DNA of 64,000 bases from Kribbella sp. ALI-6-A (GTDB taxonomy: Bacteria; Actinomycetota; Actinomycetes; Propionibacteriales; Kribbellaceae), in NCBI RefSeq assembly GCF_001984195.1, contig NZ_MTQN01000012.1, positions 1,240,001 through 1,304,000 on the forward strand, written 5' to 3'. The notes under the pieces are model-generated. The model did no database searches. It saw only the letters and a program-made list of their open reading frames with translations, and was not told the DNA's origin. A program made the position numbers and the translations under genes. Shown piece by piece: positions 57,829 to 63,591 of this stretch (the stretch's first letter is position 1; each line of letters begins with the position of its first letter).

Positions 57829-59265
57829 ATGCAGAAGCCTTCCTGGATCTTCGCGCGCGACGCCGAGTGGCAGCATCTGGCGCGGTTCGCCGCAGGAGCG
57901 CCTGAGCGTCCGCGGCTGGGCGTGGTCAGTGGCCGTCGCCGGCAAGGCAAGACGTTCCTGCTCCAGGCCCTGGCCGAGCAGGCCGGTGGGCTCTACTTCG
58001 GAGCGACGCAGGCGACCGAGACGGAGTCGCTGTCGCTGTTCGCCGCTGCGCTCGCCGCACACACTGGAGCCACCTCCCCGCCGAGGTTCGACGGCTGGGA
58101 CGACGCCGTCCGGTTCCTGTTCGCGCTACCGCCGTCGACCGGTCCGCTGGTGATCGACGAGTTCCCGTACCTGAGCAAGATGTCGCCGTCGCTGCCGTCG
58201 ATCCTGCAACGGGAGTTCGACCGGGCCGTGCCGGCGGGCCGCGCGACGCAACTGCTGCTCTGCGGGTCGGCGATGTCCGTGATGGGCGGACTGCTGTCCG
58301 GTACGGCGCCGCTGCGCGGCCGGGCGAACCTCGAGTTGATCGTCAAGCCGTTCGACCACCTGCTCGCCGCCGAGTTCTGGCAGGTGGGGGATCCGCGGCT
58401 CGCGGTCCTGCTGCACTCGGTCGTCGGCGGCACTCCGGCGTACCGGCGGTTCGTCGACGAGGACAGTCCGCAGTCGGTGGACACCTTCGACGACTGGCTG
58501 CTGCGGACCGTGCTCAGTCCGGCCAGTCCGCTCTTCCGCGAGGCGCGCTACCTGCTGGAGGAGGAGACCGACGTCCGGGACACCGCCCTCTACCACTCCG
58601 TGCTCGCAGCAGTGGCCAACGGCAACGGCACTCGGGGTGGGATCGCCAACTACATCGGCCGGAAGGCAACCGACATCGGTCATCACCTGCTGGTGCTGGA
58701 AGACAGCGGGCTGCTCCGACGGCAGCAGGATCTCTTCCGGTCCGGCCGGTCGGTGTACCAGGTGGCCGAGCCGCTGGTCGTCTTCTACCAGGTGGTGATG
58801 CGCCCGCAGTGGGGTCTGCTGGAGAGCGGACGCGCGGAGAACGTCTGGTCGGCGGCCCGGCAGCGGTTCGCCTCCCAGGTCGTCGGGCCACACTTCGAGC
58901 AGCTCTGTCGCGAGTACGCGATCACCGCACCACCCGACCTGTACGGCGACCTGCCGGGCGAGATCGGCGCGGGCGTGGTCGCCGATCGCTCCCGGCGGTC
59001 CCAGATCGAGATCGACGTCGTCGTGCTCGCGCCGGCCCAGCCGGGAGAGCGACGGCGAATCCTGTCGCTCGGTGAGGCCAAGTGGGGCGAGGTGATGGGC
59101 CGCCGTCACATCGCTCGCCTGGAACGCGCCCGGGAGTTGCTCTCTAAGGACTACGACACCAGCGGCACGGTCCTCGCTTGCTACAGCGGCGCCGGCTTCG
59201 AACCCGACCTGGATCCCGCAGTGCTCACCATCGGCCTCGACGAGCTCTACCGCCCGCTCAACTGA
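57829..59265 (+). CDS. Archaeal-type ATPase with DUF234 nuclease-like C-terminus
   Basis: 478 residues. N-terminal P-loop ATPase: Walker A in VVSGRRRQGKTFLLQAL, Walker B in GPLVIDEFPYLSK. The C-terminal domain holds RRSQIEIDVVVLAPAQ and ILSLGEAKWGEV, matching the E/D...E-x-K core of DUF234/PD-(D/E)xK domains. Such proteins are scattered widely by transfer and their role is unknown. The 45 bases upstream are strikingly AT-rich (TTTATAATAAGTACAC), unlike the rest of the window, supporting recent arrival. It ends 8 bases inside the convergent GNAT gene. Confidence 0.88.
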   Translation: MQKPSWIFARDAEWQHLARFAAGAPERPRLGVVSGRRRQGKTFLLQALAEQAGGLYFGATQATETESLSLFAAALAAHTGATSPPRFDGWDDAVRFLFALPPSTGPLVIDEFPYLSKMSPSLPSILQREFDRAVPAGRATQLLLCGSAMSVMGGLLSGTAPLRGRANLELIVKPFDHLLAAEFWQVGDPRLAVLLHSVVGGTPAYRRFVDEDSPQSVDTFDDWLLRTVLSPASPLFREARYLLEEETDVRDTALYHSVLAAVANGNGTRGGIANYIGRKATDIGHHLLVLEDSGLLRRQQDLFRSGRSVYQVAEPLVVFYQVVMRPQWGLLESGRAENVWSAARQRFASQVVGPHFEQLCREYAITAPPDLYGDLPGEIGAGVVADRSRRSQIEIDVVVLAPAQPGERRRILSLGEAKWGEVMGRRHIARLERARELLSKDYDTSGTVLACYSGAGFEPDLDPAVLTIGLDELYRPLN

Positions 59266-59707
59266 GGTGTTTGGCGAAGCAGAGCGAGGCGGGTTCGTGT
59301 TCGAAGGGTGGGTAGGCGGGGATCGGGTGGTAGCCGTGGCGGGTGTAGAGGGCAATGGCGGCGTGCTGTTCGGGGCCGGTTTCGAGGCGCAGGGTGGTCA
59401 GGCCTTGCGCGCGGGCCTGGGTTTCCAGGTGGGTGAGCAGCAGGCGGGACAGGCCCCAGCCGCGGGAGGACGGTTCGATGTACAGGCGTTTGATCTCGCC
59501 GGTGTCGGCGGTGACCGGCTGGAGGCCGATGCAGCCGACGGGGGTGTTGTCGACGAGCAGCAGGGTGAAGGACGTGTCGGAGTGCGGGGTGACCAGGGGC
59601 TGGTCGTCGCCGTAGAGCGCGGCCAGCTCTGACTGCTGGGCTGTCGTGAGGGCGAGCAGGGCCGGATCGGTGGACTCGACCGGGTGGAGAACTGCGCCGT
59701 CGATCAT
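59258..59707 (-). CDS. GNAT acetyltransferase
   Basis: 149 residues. The GNAT core is clear: GEIKRLYIEPSSRGWGLSRLLLTHLETQARAQG (acetyl-CoA loop near RGWGLS, slightly altered from the usual RGxGIG) and AIALYTRHGYHPIPAY. ATG start. Overlaps the end of the convergent ATPase gene by 8 bases. Substrate unknown. Confidence 0.88.
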   Translation of the reverse strand: MIDGAVLHPVESTDPALLALTTAQQSELAALYGDDQPLVTPHSDTSFTLLLVDNTPVGCIGLQPVTADTGEIKRLYIEPSSRGWGLSRLLLTHLETQARAQGLTTLRLETGPEQHAAIALYTRHGYHPIPAYPPFEHEPASLCFAKHLS

Positions 59708-59801: not shown

Positions 59802-59832
59802 TTGACCTCAAGCGAGCTTGAGCGCCCAGGAT
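59802..59832 (+). promoter_or_regulatory. SoxR/MerR-type promoter of the VOC gene
   Basis: -35 TTGACC (59802-59807) and -10 CAGGAT (59827-59832) are separated by 19 bases, the stretched spacing of MerR-family-controlled promoters. In the spacer lies a palindrome CTCAAGCGAGCTTGAG (59807-59822) that matches the SoxR box pattern CCTCAAG-N4-CTTGAGG at nearly every position. The -10 ends 7 bases before the ATG. Confidence 0.7.
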
Positions 59833-59839
59833 CCTCGGC

Positions 59840-60220
59840 ATGGTGATGACGTTGCGGGTCGAGGTGTTCGCGTGGGACCTGGAGGCGGCCGGTGAGTTCT
59901 ACCGCCGGGTGCTCGGCTTCGAGGAGCTGAACCGCCGGCCGGGCTACCTGTGGATGGGCCGGGGGACGGCACGGATCGGGATCGGCGAGCGGCCGGAGGT
60001 GGTCGACCCGGCGTCCCGGCGAGTGCCGGCCGGAACCGAGCTCGTGCTCGAGGTGGACGACCTGGATGCGGAATACGCGCGGGTCGTCGCCAGTGGGTGG
60101 CCGGTCGAGAGCGAGCCGCGGACGCAGGAGTGGGGACTGCGTGACTTTCGCCTGTTCGATGCCGATGGTTACTACCTGAGGCTCACCAGCCGTGGCAGAA
60201 CGGCGGCCGGCATGCTCTGA
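59840..60220 (+). CDS. VOC family protein (SoxR-type regulon candidate)
   Basis: 126 residues of the vicinal-oxygen-chelate fold: LRVEVFAWDLEAAGEFYRRVLGFEELNR, PAGTELVLEVDDLDAEYARVVASGWPVESEP, and RLFDADGYYLRLTSR. Members detoxify or sequester reactive small molecules. The ATG lies 7 bases after a -10 box in a MerR-type promoter, so it is probably leaderless and induced by redox-active compounds. A second ATG two codons later is possible. The amidase gene follows after 8 bases. Confidence 0.85.
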   Translation: MVMTLRVEVFAWDLEAAGEFYRRVLGFEELNRRPGYLWMGRGTARIGIGERPEVVDPASRRVPAGTELVLEVDDLDAEYARVVASGWPVESEPRTQEWGLRDFRLFDADGYYLRLTSRGRTAAGML

Positions 60221-60228
60221 TTGGCCGG

Positions 60229-61494
60229 GTGCTTTCGCTCGAGGAGATCGCTGCCCACGTCCGTTCCGGTCAGCTCGAACCGGCCGAGCTGGTTGAGGAG
60301 GCGCTCTCGCGGGCGCGCGCCGCGGCCGCGCTGAACGCCGTCGTTCACCTGGACGAGAACGGCGCCCGCGCCGCCGCGGCCTGGCACGACCGGAAAGGAC
60401 CGTTGGCCGGCGTCCCGGTGCTGGTGAAGGAGATCATCGAGGTCGAGGGGCTTCCGTACCGCTGCGGCTCGGCGGCGATGGACGAGCTCGGCCGGCACGA
60501 CGCCGACGTCGTTCGCCGGCTGCACGCCGCGGGAGCGATCGTGATCGGCCTCAGTCACTCGCACGAATTCGCTTACGGCTGCACCGGTACGTCGAACCGC
60601 GCCGGCCCGTGCCGCAACCCGCACGACCCCGAGCGGATGACCGGCGGTTCCAGTTCGGGCGCGGGAGCGGCTGTCGCGGCCGGCGTCGTCCCGCTCGCGA
60701 TCGGGACCGACACGGCCGGCTCGGTGCGAATCCCGGCAGCGCTGTGCGGAGTGGTCGGCTTCAAGCCGGCGTACGGGACGTTGCCGACCGACGGGGTGTT
60801 CCCGCTCGCGCAGAGCCTCGACCATGTCGGCGTTCTGACCGAGACCGTCGCCGATGCCGCCTACGCCCTGGCCGCGCTGACGAACTCGATGCCCACGGCA
60901 CCGTTGGCGGCGCCGCCGCGGCTCGGCATCGTGGCCGGCCGGAGCGAGTACGACGCCGAGGTCGCCGAGGCCTGGTCGGCCGGGCTCGGGCGGTTGCAGA
61001 CGGCCGGAGCGACGACCGAGCCGGTCAGCCTTCCCGACGACATCACCCGGACCGCGATCGACCTGCAGGGCCCGGAGGCGGTCGCGAACCATGCCGGGCG
61101 CAGCACCGACACGTACCAGCCCGACGTTCAGCTCCGCCTGAAGGAGGCGGCCGAAGTCCCTGCCTGGCGGTACGTCCAGGCCCGCCGGGACACCGAAACG
61201 ATCCGCGCCCAGGTGAAGGCTGTGCTGGATCGCCACGACGCCGTCGTGCTGCCGACCGTCCCGCTCGTCGCGCCGCCCATCTCGGCCGTGGCGGACCTGA
61301 GCGGATCGACCGCCGTCCGGGCCCAGCTGATGCGCAACACACGCCTGGCCAACCTCACCGGATTTCCCGCGATCACCCTGCCGTTGCCGGTCCGCGGCCT
61401 GCCGGTCGGTCTGCAAGTGATTGCCAAGGACAACGAAACCGCGGCCGCCACAGCCGGCTGGATCGCCGGTCGGCTGGCGGCCGCGAAGGGCTGA
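60229..61494 (+). CDS. Amidase (amidase-signature family)
   Basis: 421 residues with the amidase-signature Ser-cisSer-Lys triad: Lys67 in GVPVLVKEIIEV, cis-Ser in MTGGSSSGAGAAVA (141-142), and the nucleophile Ser165 in GTDTAGSVRIPAALCG. The enzyme hydrolyses amide bonds of an unknown small substrate; the GatA-like partner genes are absent, so it is not the tRNA amidotransferase. GTG start 8 bases after the VOC stop; the two are probably one operon under the SoxR-type promoter. Confidence 0.9.
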   Translation: MLSLEEIAAHVRSGQLEPAELVEEALSRARAAAALNAVVHLDENGARAAAAWHDRKGPLAGVPVLVKEIIEVEGLPYRCGSAAMDELGRHDADVVRRLHAAGAIVIGLSHSHEFAYGCTGTSNRAGPCRNPHDPERMTGGSSSGAGAAVAAGVVPLAIGTDTAGSVRIPAALCGVVGFKPAYGTLPTDGVFPLAQSLDHVGVLTETVADAAYALAALTNSMPTAPLAAPPRLGIVAGRSEYDAEVAEAWSAGLGRLQTAGATTEPVSLPDDITRTAIDLQGPEAVANHAGRSTDTYQPDVQLRLKEAAEVPAWRYVQARRDTETIRAQVKAVLDRHDAVVLPTVPLVAPPISAVADLSGSTAVRAQLMRNTRLANLTGFPAITLPLPVRGLPVGLQVIAKDNETAAATAGWIAGRLAAAKG

Positions 61495-61497
61495 GGC

Positions 61498-61521
61498 CGG
61501 CCCCCAGGGCAGTGGGGGCCG
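61498..61521. terminator. Shared terminator of the amidase and GH30 genes
   Basis: CGGCCCCC (61498-61505) pairs with GGGGGCCG (61514-61521) around an 8-base loop, in the 36-base gap between two convergent stop codons. Confidence 0.65.
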
Positions 61522-61530
61522 ACCGGTCCG

Positions 61531-63453
61531 TCAGCTGTAGACCCGGACGTCGGCCAAGGTCCACCAGTGGTCGCTCGCACTCGTCGAGGTGATCCGCAGG
61601 TAGCGGGCCCGCGTCGGTGTGACGTCGACGTTCGTGAGCTGACCGTCGGACGTGCCGGTCTTCAGCGGCCGCCACGTCGTACCGTCGTTGCTGTAGGACA
61701 GTTGCCAAGTGCCCGGGTAGTCCCCGAGGTTGCCACCGCTGTCGAGCGCGACCCGGCGGACGGTGCGCGCGGTGCCGAGATCGACCTGCACGTACTGCCC
61801 GGAGGTCAGCGCCTGCTTGCTCTGCCACAGCGTCGAACCGTCCGCGTCGATCGCCAGCGGAGCCAGCTCCGCCCCGACCGAGGCCATCGCCCCGGCAAGC
61901 GGCACCGGCTTGTACGACGACGGAAGCTCCCGCGCCCAGACGAACGTCCCGATCGCGCCACCGGGCAGCGTGTACTCGAAGGACTGATCGCCGACCGCGA
62001 CCGCGAAGCTGCGCGGCTCGTCGTTCTCGTTGTGCACGAGCAGCGCCGTCGACCCGTCCCGGTTGCGGAACGCGGACGACATCAGCTGCCCGTTCCATCC
62101 GGTCGTCCCGTACGACGTGGAGGCGATCCGCTGCGCGCCGGGCTTCACGAACTTCGACAGGTGGCCGATCGTGTAGTACTCCGCGTCGGTGCTGACCGAG
62201 CCGTCCGGGTGCCGGGTGACCAGACCGGTGCAGGTGTCGCAGCCGCCGTTGTGCGGACCACCGTCGGCGTTCAGCGCGATGTTCCAGTTGACCACCGACT
62301 TCGCCCAGTTCCGGGTGGTGCCGAGCATCAGCGTGCGGGCGTGCCAGGTGAGCGTGCCGCGGAAGATCTGCGGCGGGGTGTCGTTCGGTCCGTGCGAGCC
62401 GGAGCACTCGGTGAACCAGATCCCCTTGTCCGGGAACGCCTGCCGCAGCGCCGACTGGGCCGCGGGCGTACCGGAGTAGCAGTGGTACGCCGTACCGGCG
62501 ATCCAGCGCGCCGCCGGCGAGCTGAGCAGCTGGTAGGGGTAGTCGGTCTCGGGATCCTCACCGGGCGGGGTGTTGGCGACGTCGCCCGGGTGGGTGGTCC
62601 AGTTGTGGTCGTAGCCGAGGATCTTCGTCCGCGGGCTGGCCACGCGCAGCATCGGGCCGAGCTGCTCGATCACCGCGGCCGCCTGGCGGACCGGCAGGTC
62701 GGTGCCGGGGTAGCCGCTCGGCGTCCGGTTCTGCGGCTCGTTCTGGATCGAGAGGAAGTCGACCGGTACGCCGGCCGCGGTGTACGCCTTGACGAACTTC
62801 ACCAGGTAGCGCGCGTAGGCGTTGTAGATCGCCGGGTCGTCCTTCAGCCGGCCGCCGACGAGCGAGTCGCCGGTCTTCATCCAGGCCGGCGGACTCCACG
62901 GCGTCGCCATCACCTTGAGTTCCGGGTTGAGCTGCTTGGCCCGGCGCAGCAACGGCAGGATCTGCTTGTGCTCGTGCGCGATGCTGAAGTGCCGCAGGCC
63001 AAAGTCGGTCTGGCCGGCGGGCATGTCGTCGTACGTGTAGTGCTCGGTCTGGGCGGTGAAGTCGGACGAGCCGACGACCTGGCGCAGGAAGCTGACGCCG
63101 ATGCCCTGCTTCGGGTCGAACAACTTGCGCATCGTCTTCTCGCGGTCCGCGGTCGACAGTTGGTAGAGCACGGCGGCCGAGGAGTCGGTGATCGAGGCGC
63201 CGAAGCCGTCGATGGTCTGGTACGTCGTACCGGGGTCGACGGTGATCGTCGTCTGCCGGCTCGAGCCCTGGGCGAACGCGACCGGCGCCCGCTCGTGCAG
63301 CAGTTCGGCGCGGTCGGGGGTGGTCACCCAGACGCGGGCCTGGGTGGTCGATCCACCGCCACGACCGTCGCCGGTCGCCTCGGCCGACGGGACCAGGCCG
63401 GTCGCCAGCAGGGCGGTGGCCGTGACGGCGGCGCCCAGCGTGTGCCTTCTCAT
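61531..63453 (-). CDS. Secreted GH30 glycoside hydrolase with C-terminal F5/8C-type domain
   Basis: 640 residues. Signal peptide RRHTLGAAVTATALLATGLVPSAEA; glycoside hydrolase family 30 barrel from about residue 70 (TYQTIDGFGASITDSSA, TPWSPPAWMKTG) with acid/base Glu239 in SIQNEPQ and nucleophile Glu349 in WFTECSG; a small beta domain; and a C-terminal discoidin (F5/8 type C) sugar-binding module from about residue 510. Likely beta-1,6-glucanase or glucosylceramidase activity on extracellular glycans. ATG at 63453 with AAGGAG upstream. Divergent from a LacI-type regulator that probably controls it. Confidence 0.92.
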   Translation of the reverse strand: MRRHTLGAAVTATALLATGLVPSAEATGDGRGGGSTTQARVWVTTPDRAELLHERAPVAFAQGSSRQTTITVDPGTTYQTIDGFGASITDSSAAVLYQLSTADREKTMRKLFDPKQGIGVSFLRQVVGSSDFTAQTEHYTYDDMPAGQTDFGLRHFSIAHEHKQILPLLRRAKQLNPELKVMATPWSPPAWMKTGDSLVGGRLKDDPAIYNAYARYLVKFVKAYTAAGVPVDFLSIQNEPQNRTPSGYPGTDLPVRQAAAVIEQLGPMLRVASPRTKILGYDHNWTTHPGDVANTPPGEDPETDYPYQLLSSPAARWIAGTAYHCYSGTPAAQSALRQAFPDKGIWFTECSGSHGPNDTPPQIFRGTLTWHARTLMLGTTRNWAKSVVNWNIALNADGGPHNGGCDTCTGLVTRHPDGSVSTDAEYYTIGHLSKFVKPGAQRIASTSYGTTGWNGQLMSSAFRNRDGSTALLVHNENDEPRSFAVAVGDQSFEYTLPGGAIGTFVWARELPSSYKPVPLAGAMASVGAELAPLAIDADGSTLWQSKQALTSGQYVQVDLGTARTVRRVALDSGGNLGDYPGTWQLSYSNDGTTWRPLKTGTSDGQLTNVDVTPTRARYLRITSTSASDHWWTLADVRVYS

Positions 63454-63464
63454 GGACGGGCTCC

Positions 63465-63591
63465 TTACATCGGGCGGGATGTAACAAATGAAACAAAGAA
63501 CAACGCGCGTGGGGACAGAAAACGCTCGCTCTGGCCAGCTGTCAAGACTGGAGATAGAGTCCGGATGTGAAACAAAGCCGTGTAACAAATG
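63465..63591. promoter_or_regulatory. GH30/LacI divergent control region
   Basis: TTACATC-N6-GATGTAA (63465-63484) is a palindrome over the GH30 leader. TGTAACAAATG occurs at 63480-63490 and again at 63581-63591 (over the regulator's start), and TGAAACAAAG at 63489-63498 and 63568-63577. These paired sites suggest two operators bound by the LacI-type regulator, with looping possible. Confidence 0.55.

Follow-up and report, generated by a model that had tools for sequence, protein, structure and literature searches.

A putative SoxR-type promoter ahead of a VOC gene in Kribbella sp. ALI-6-A

In the soil bacterium Kribbella sp. ALI-6-A, a gene of the VOC (glyoxalase/bleomycin-resistance) type and an amidase gene stand one behind the other, preceded by what looks like the promoter of a redox-sensing regulator. 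This raises the question of whether the promoter belongs to a SoxR regulon, which regulator would read it and whether the two gene products act together. The question was addressed computationally in a stretch of 64,000 nucleotides (hereafter the window), in the genome of the strain and in related genomes.

The VOC promoter and its surroundings

The VOC gene (59840..60220, forward strand) encodes a protein of 126 aa that was recognized by Pfam PF00903 (E 2.4e-15). The score of 57.4 bits with this Glyoxalase model, for a gathering score of 20.6, assigns it to the VOC superfamily. The amidase-signature enzyme (421 aa, 60229..61494, forward strand) was recognized by Pfam PF01425 (E 3.1e-81) and starts 8 bases after the VOC stop, a gap that had been claimed in an earlier sequence-only reading and that follows from the coordinates 60220 and 60229. 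Two conserved neighbours, identified by Pfam and synteny, enclose the pair: a divergent GNAT acetyltransferase (59258..59707, reverse strand; PF00583) and a convergent GH30 glycoside hydrolase (61531..63465, reverse strand; PF02055). None of the four neighbours identified looks biosynthetic (GNAT, an ATPase-like protein, GH30 and a tRNA nucleotidyltransferase which we take to be of the CCA type). Behind the amidase stop, folding energy indicates a G+C-rich hairpin without a T run (61498..61521, forward strand), which is a possible transcript end; the fold of 61488-61535 reached -31 kcal/mol (z -2.39), and 3 of 200 shuffled sequences were equally stable.

In promoters of the SoxR/MerR type, a spacer of 19 bases keeps transcription nearly silent until SoxR with an oxidised [2Fe-2S] cluster distorts the DNA at the dyad, upon which transcription takes place. 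Ahead of the VOC gene, a -35 hexamer TTGACC (59802..59807, forward strand) was read in the sequence at the position of TTTACC in the E. coli soxS promoter. It is separated by 19 bases from a -10 hexamer CAGGAT (59827..59832, forward strand), which fits xAxxxT at this spacing. The SoxR-type dyad CTCAAGCGAGCTTGAG (59807..59822, forward strand) starts on the final base of the -35 hexamer and lies within the spacer, so that the order from 59802 is TTGACC-TCAAGCGAGCTTGAGCGCC-CAGGAT-CCTCGGC-ATG, with the ATG at 59840. The soxS promoter of E. coli (TTTACC-TCAAGTTAACTTGAGGAAT-TATACT), used as positive control, displays the same geometry of -35, dyad in a 19-base spacer and -10, and agrees with the consensus at 15 of 16 positions. 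The sequence-only reading had proposed a SoxR/MerR-type promoter with a 19-base spacer, and the -35, spacer, -10, dyad and ATG are all exactly as it described them. Allowing for at most one mismatch, the dyad pattern occurs a single time in the window, compared to an average of 0.09 in shuffled sequences (9 of 100 shuffles contained a match). Because the ATG falls 7 bases after the -10 hexamer, the VOC mRNA is probably leaderless and transcribed from about its own ATG.

Conservation of the box was examined in the genus and beyond. The VOC gene was detected in 6 of 37 Kribbella genomes searched (E 1e-20), and it is preceded by the box in all six, with 15 or 16 of 16 positions conserved and the ATG at +37 or +38 from the -35 in a common promoter geometry. 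Outside the genus, the best 80 of 109 homologue matches included three Kribbella entries (L079, L080 and L083, repeating the genomes G017, G019 and G014), which were set apart; of the remaining 77 loci, 75 had no box (at least 14/16, within 150 bases) and two had one, in Rhodococcus rhodnii and Micromonospora sp. KC606. In three of four relatives (L021, L022 and L023) the dyad before the VOC gene doubles as the 3' end of the amidase reading frame; a coding constraint may thus account for some of its conservation there, even though the encoded residues differ. In the locus L020, the amidase stop falls inside the -35 hexamer of the VOC promoter.

Related boxes and their candidate regulator

The combined pattern of -35 and dyad, TTGACYTCAASN4STTGA, was searched in the whole genome. 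Six exact matches were obtained in 8.1 Mb, where base composition predicts 0.003. With up to one mismatch 15 sites were found and none with the reversed pattern, and with up to two mismatches 22 sites against 4 in the control. The same was seen in 38 genomes of the genus, with 512 sites at up to one mismatch (9 to 20 per genome) and 7 in the reversed controls. The dyad alone (CTCAAGN4CTTGAG, one mismatch) was not enriched in the genome, with 5 palindromic places against 10 for the reversed control, so the signal sits in the combination, and the dyad plus -35 was taken as the marker of the regulon. A variant with a five-base centre, which served as spacing control, was not enriched either (14 against 21 in its reversed control). 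Two features outside the search pattern lend independent support to the sites: xAxxxT lies at exactly 19 bases in 13 of the 15 (among other spacings from 14 to 24, only 22 bases was seen, with n=3), and an ATG followed by an open frame of 60 codons lies at +36 to +39 from the -35 in 10 of the 15, the VOC site included. The VOC promoter is one of a well-known type, of which the genome holds about fifteen.

Redox enzymes, transporters or a soxR gene stand behind 12 of these 15 sites. Besides the VOC gene, the sites with at most one mismatch precede a soxR gene (soxR3), an Fe/Mn superoxide dismutase, three MFS transporters with the ATG at +38 (L029, L037 and L041), two short-chain dehydrogenases, an FMN reductase, a PNPOx-type protein, a DUF4440/SnoaL-like protein, two zinc-type dehydrogenases resembling quinone oxidoreductase, an arylamine N-acetyltransferase and an NmrA-like protein. 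An ABC transporter, a methyltransferase and an MFS gene divergent from soxR3 are found behind the seven sites with two mismatches; two others of the seven (L043 and L044) look spurious, since no suitable gene lies downstream.

Two of the targets deserve a separate description. The superoxide dismutase gene is preceded by an exact SoxR-type box, TTGACCTCAACCGTGGTTGA, with the -10 CAAGCT (L028, G000 C5:252524-252543). An identical box occurs in 9 of 10 relatives with sites listed, and precedes the superoxide dismutase gene in all three relative loci retrieved (L160, L161 and L164). In E. coli, SoxR acts on superoxide dismutase via SoxS, from which direct control by SoxR would differ. The arylamine N-acetyltransferase (L039, G000 C7:314038) has a one-mismatch box and its ATG at +38, which makes it a candidate SoxR target; its -10, TGAGAT, lies outside xAxxxT.

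The genome encodes three proteins above the NCBIfam TIGR01950 cut-off, of which SoxR1 and SoxR3 were rechecked as equivalog matches. SoxR1, SoxR2 and SoxR3 each carry the cysteine motif CxGCxC...C (four-cysteine cluster) and were assigned to SoxR, and SoxR1 matches the SoxR structure 2zhg with E 6.7e-46. A search elsewhere in the genome, on which the sequence-only reading had let its assignment depend, therefore did find SoxR homologues. Its statement that the window itself is devoid of soxR holds as well, as tblastn with the three genomic SoxR proteins (low-complexity filter off, control loci detected) gave no match there at E<=1. The same three proteins revealed no soxR at 1e-4 beside the VOC gene in the window, in five loci from Kribbella or in 80 loci of homologues (best 80 of 109); a repeat with detectable control loci yielded a sole match beyond the controls, at E 0.63.

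The choice between the three proteins rests on their distribution and on their own upstream regions. All 38 genomes of the genus contain at least two SoxR matches, 30 having only two and 8 having three. Four of the six VOC genomes are among those with only two; since box and VOC gene are present there, no need arises for a third SoxR. Upstream of soxR1, 30 loci were examined, of which 24 of the SoxR1 type were kept and 6 others dropped. The dyad TCAAS-N4-STTGA is perfect in 19 of the 24 and has at most one mismatch (9 of 10 positions or better) in 23. A TCAAG left arm is present in 23 of 24, and the box of the window likewise has TCAAG arms. In two genomes (L058 and L065) the 14 bases of the soxR1 dyad, TCAAGCGAGCTTGA, are identical to those of the VOC box. 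Two dyads count against such a likeness: the one in the window's own genome has one mismatch, and the one in the VOC genome G019 matches 8 of 10 positions, the lowest score among the 24. On the overall resemblance, and with a third SoxR unneeded, SoxR1 is the first choice and appears more likely than SoxR2 or SoxR3 to be the regulator of the VOC box.

The position of the soxR1 dyad is a further point against this choice. In these loci (L052-L077) it stops 17 or 18 bases short of a TAGGGT-like -10, covering the presumed -35 and lying outside the spacer. With such a placement the dyad may regulate soxR1 in a different manner; repression or another mode of autoregulation would suit it. The third, lower-scoring soxR (soxR3, L027/L030, G000 C7:23345-23445) has a box of its own and a second dyad toward a divergent MFS gene.

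Other regulators were weighed against SoxR1. That SoxR2 or SoxR3 reads the VOC promoter is rather unlikely, though several observations speak for it: a perfect box, identical in geometry, lies 71 bases ahead of the soxR3 match start, a CCTC...GAGG dyad, of which CCTCGACTTCGGTTGAGG is an example, was present in each of the four soxR2 loci read, and the VOC boxes of the relatives G023 and G014 have a TCAAC arm. Boxes of the TCAAG and TCAAC types may have different readers. The observations in favour are outweighed by the four VOC genomes that manage with two SoxR matches and by the TCAAG arms that the window's box has in common with the soxR1 upstream regions. Further from SoxR1, a drug- or metal-sensing MerR regulator might read these promoters instead. 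MerR relatives are numerous in the genome (29 proteins match the SoxR model at E 1e-3, 26 of them under its cut-off), and a dyad within a 19-base spacer is common in the MerR family. Yet soxR3 is the only gene of the 29 within 1 kb of a site, the arms of the box agree with those of E. coli soxS and the classes of targets agree with SoxR regulons, which leaves a non-SoxR regulator very improbable. The assignment of the VOC promoter to SoxR, as judged from these sequence comparisons, is well supported.

The VOC protein and the amidase

Among solved structures, the VOC protein is closest in sequence to TioX (E 1.8e-10). An extract of PMC4052310 describes the capture of thiocoraline by TioX, and the sandramycin cluster of a Kribbella contains a TioX homologue according to an extract of PMC9962454. 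The predicted structural model was moderate (pLDDT 75.6, pTM 0.57). With it, the fold search gave TM-scores of about 0.33-0.43 for TioX, TnmS and BLMT and of about 0.4 to 0.65 for MRD, and several glyoxalase-like and epimerase entries reached 0.6-0.7. The VOC fold is common to TioX, TnmS1/2, the mitomycin-binding MRD, BLMT and the protein of the window, for which drug binding is a prediction. The latter falls below the NCBIfam cut-offs of BLMT (24.1 against 210 bits) and BLMA (19.6 against 140 bits).

To judge from the sequence match and the modelled fold, the most likely role of the VOC protein is to bind a redox-active aromatic compound and keep it sequestered, in the way that TioX acts on thiocoraline. 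It could instead be a metabolic enzyme, for example of an epimerase or lyase type, and this is a serious though lesser possibility: methylmalonyl-CoA epimerases and glyoxalases were retrieved in the fold search at similar E-values, often with higher TM-scores. Against an enzyme count the rank of TioX at the top of the sequence matches among solved structures and the box, which ties the gene to the redox-drug response.

The amidase is by sequence a member of the amidase signature family. It scores 274 bits with the Amidase Pfam model, its top match among solved structures is 2dc0 (E 2.4e-60), and the stretches VKE, GGSSSG and GTDTAGSVRIPA align to that protein; its Lys and its Gly/Ser-rich motifs presumably form the catalytic triad. 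Amidase-signature enzymes (the probable amidase 2dc0 and biuret hydrolase) match it over nearly the whole length, and its scores with the 25 NCBIfam models shown all remain under the respective cut-offs.

The amidase has a much wider spread than the VOC gene, with an orthologue in 28 of 38 genomes (E 1e-100) against 6 of 37. Its typical arrangement is GNAT-amidase-GH30: among 23 genomes with the amidase and no VOC gene found, 12 loci were inspected, 10 of which contain all three genes, and none of the 12 has a box (at least 14/16) near the amidase. One genome, G058, was outside the VOC search, and no VOC gene was seen in the 10 kb examined. All four relatives that possess both genes show the arrangement amidase-box-VOC, and box-VOC-amidase occurs in the window's genome only. 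Identities to the window for amidase and VOC in these relatives are 80/82, 69/75, 68/72 and 67/64 percent; this parallel fall would suit a pair inherited from a common ancestor, whose VOC gene many lineages have lost, rather than a recent arrival. In Kribbella sp. ALI-6-A, the amidase gene is probably co-transcribed with the VOC gene as a by-product of the altered gene order, and control of the amidase by SoxR, should it exist, is thus seen in one strain.

It had been suggested that the two proteins may act together, as one redox-drug module or dedicated two-step pathway for a single redox-active natural product. The 8 bases between the genes in the window would suit this, as would their adjacency in five of the six VOC genomes, K. 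steppae (G017) among them, where the pair occurs without GNAT and GH30 within the 17 kb examined. The relatives speak against it: the amidase stands upstream of the box in all four relatives with both genes, it is boxless in the inspected loci that lack the VOC gene, and its distribution is far broader. Moreover, K. albertanoniae (G014) has box and VOC gene and no genomic amidase match at E 1e-100 (with 240 bases between its VOC gene and the end of a contig), and the Rhodococcus and Micromonospora VOC loci have no amidase match at 1e-8. A dedicated module is therefore quite improbable, and the VOC-amidase partnership remains a weak proposition.

Proposed action and relation to known systems

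Taken as a whole, it is quite probable on these data that the box belongs to the SoxR regulon as a MerR-type promoter through which SoxR, more likely SoxR1, drives a VOC sequesterer, the amidase being co-transcribed. The 19-base spacer would hold the VOC promoter nearly silent. On exposure to redox-active compounds, dyad-bound SoxR would have its [2Fe-2S] cluster oxidised, and the DNA would be distorted. The distorted promoter would then allow leaderless transcription of VOC from about its own ATG, the VOC protein would, as its sequence and fold suggest, bind and sequester a redox-active aromatic compound, and in the window's strain the amidase would be read off the same transcript. A bolder version may be called 'sense, then sequester': the leaderless, oxidation-triggered VOC would remove the same compound to which SoxR responds, and the change of gene order in this strain would have brought the conserved amidase newly under SoxR, with a hydrolytic step as the addition. 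In this full form the proposal is speculative and unlikely.

The Kribbella boxes differ from the soxS promoter of E. coli in what they control. There the product is a second regulator, whereas in Kribbella the boxes stand directly before effector genes, often with no room for a leader. The closer comparison is with S. coelicolor, whose SoxR regulon comprises six genes in the excerpted text of PMC4146615. As far as this excerpt describes them, both organisms have boxes before a quinone oxidoreductase, a flavoprotein reductase, an NAD-dependent epimerase/dehydratase and an ABC transporter. The Kribbella targets that resemble these are the quinone oxidoreductase-like enzymes, the FMN reductase, the NmrA/epimerase-like protein and, at a two-mismatch site, the ABC transporter. 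In contrast to the six genes given there, Kribbella has 15 sites with at most one mismatch and three soxR genes, and boxes are predicted before the Fe/Mn superoxide dismutase, the arylamine N-acetyltransferase, the three MFS transporters and the VOC gene. According to the same excerpt, the S. coelicolor soxR gene does not undergo autoregulation, and a potential soxbox accompanies about 13 percent of the soxR homologues in other streptomycetes; in Kribbella, by contrast, box-like dyads lie upstream of soxR1 and soxR3. Activators of SoxR in S. coelicolor include plumbagin, benzoquinone and phenazine methosulfate, among others, in an extract of PMC5288332. Among the matches listed from open-licence titles and abstract openings, none described a glyoxalase, bleomycin resistance or amidase gene as SoxR target, or a SoxR target in Kribbella. 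The open-licence matches listed for leaderless SoxR promoters and actinobacterial SoxR regulons likewise held no closer case.

By its box, an uncharacterised VOC gene becomes tied to the redox-drug response, and a concrete and testable set of SoxR genes becomes available for an actinomycete genus. The box set exceeds the six genes of S. coelicolor in the excerpt cited and includes an Fe/Mn superoxide dismutase whose gene immediately follows a SoxR-type box. The swapped order of amidase and VOC would exemplify the natural capture of a gene by a new promoter.
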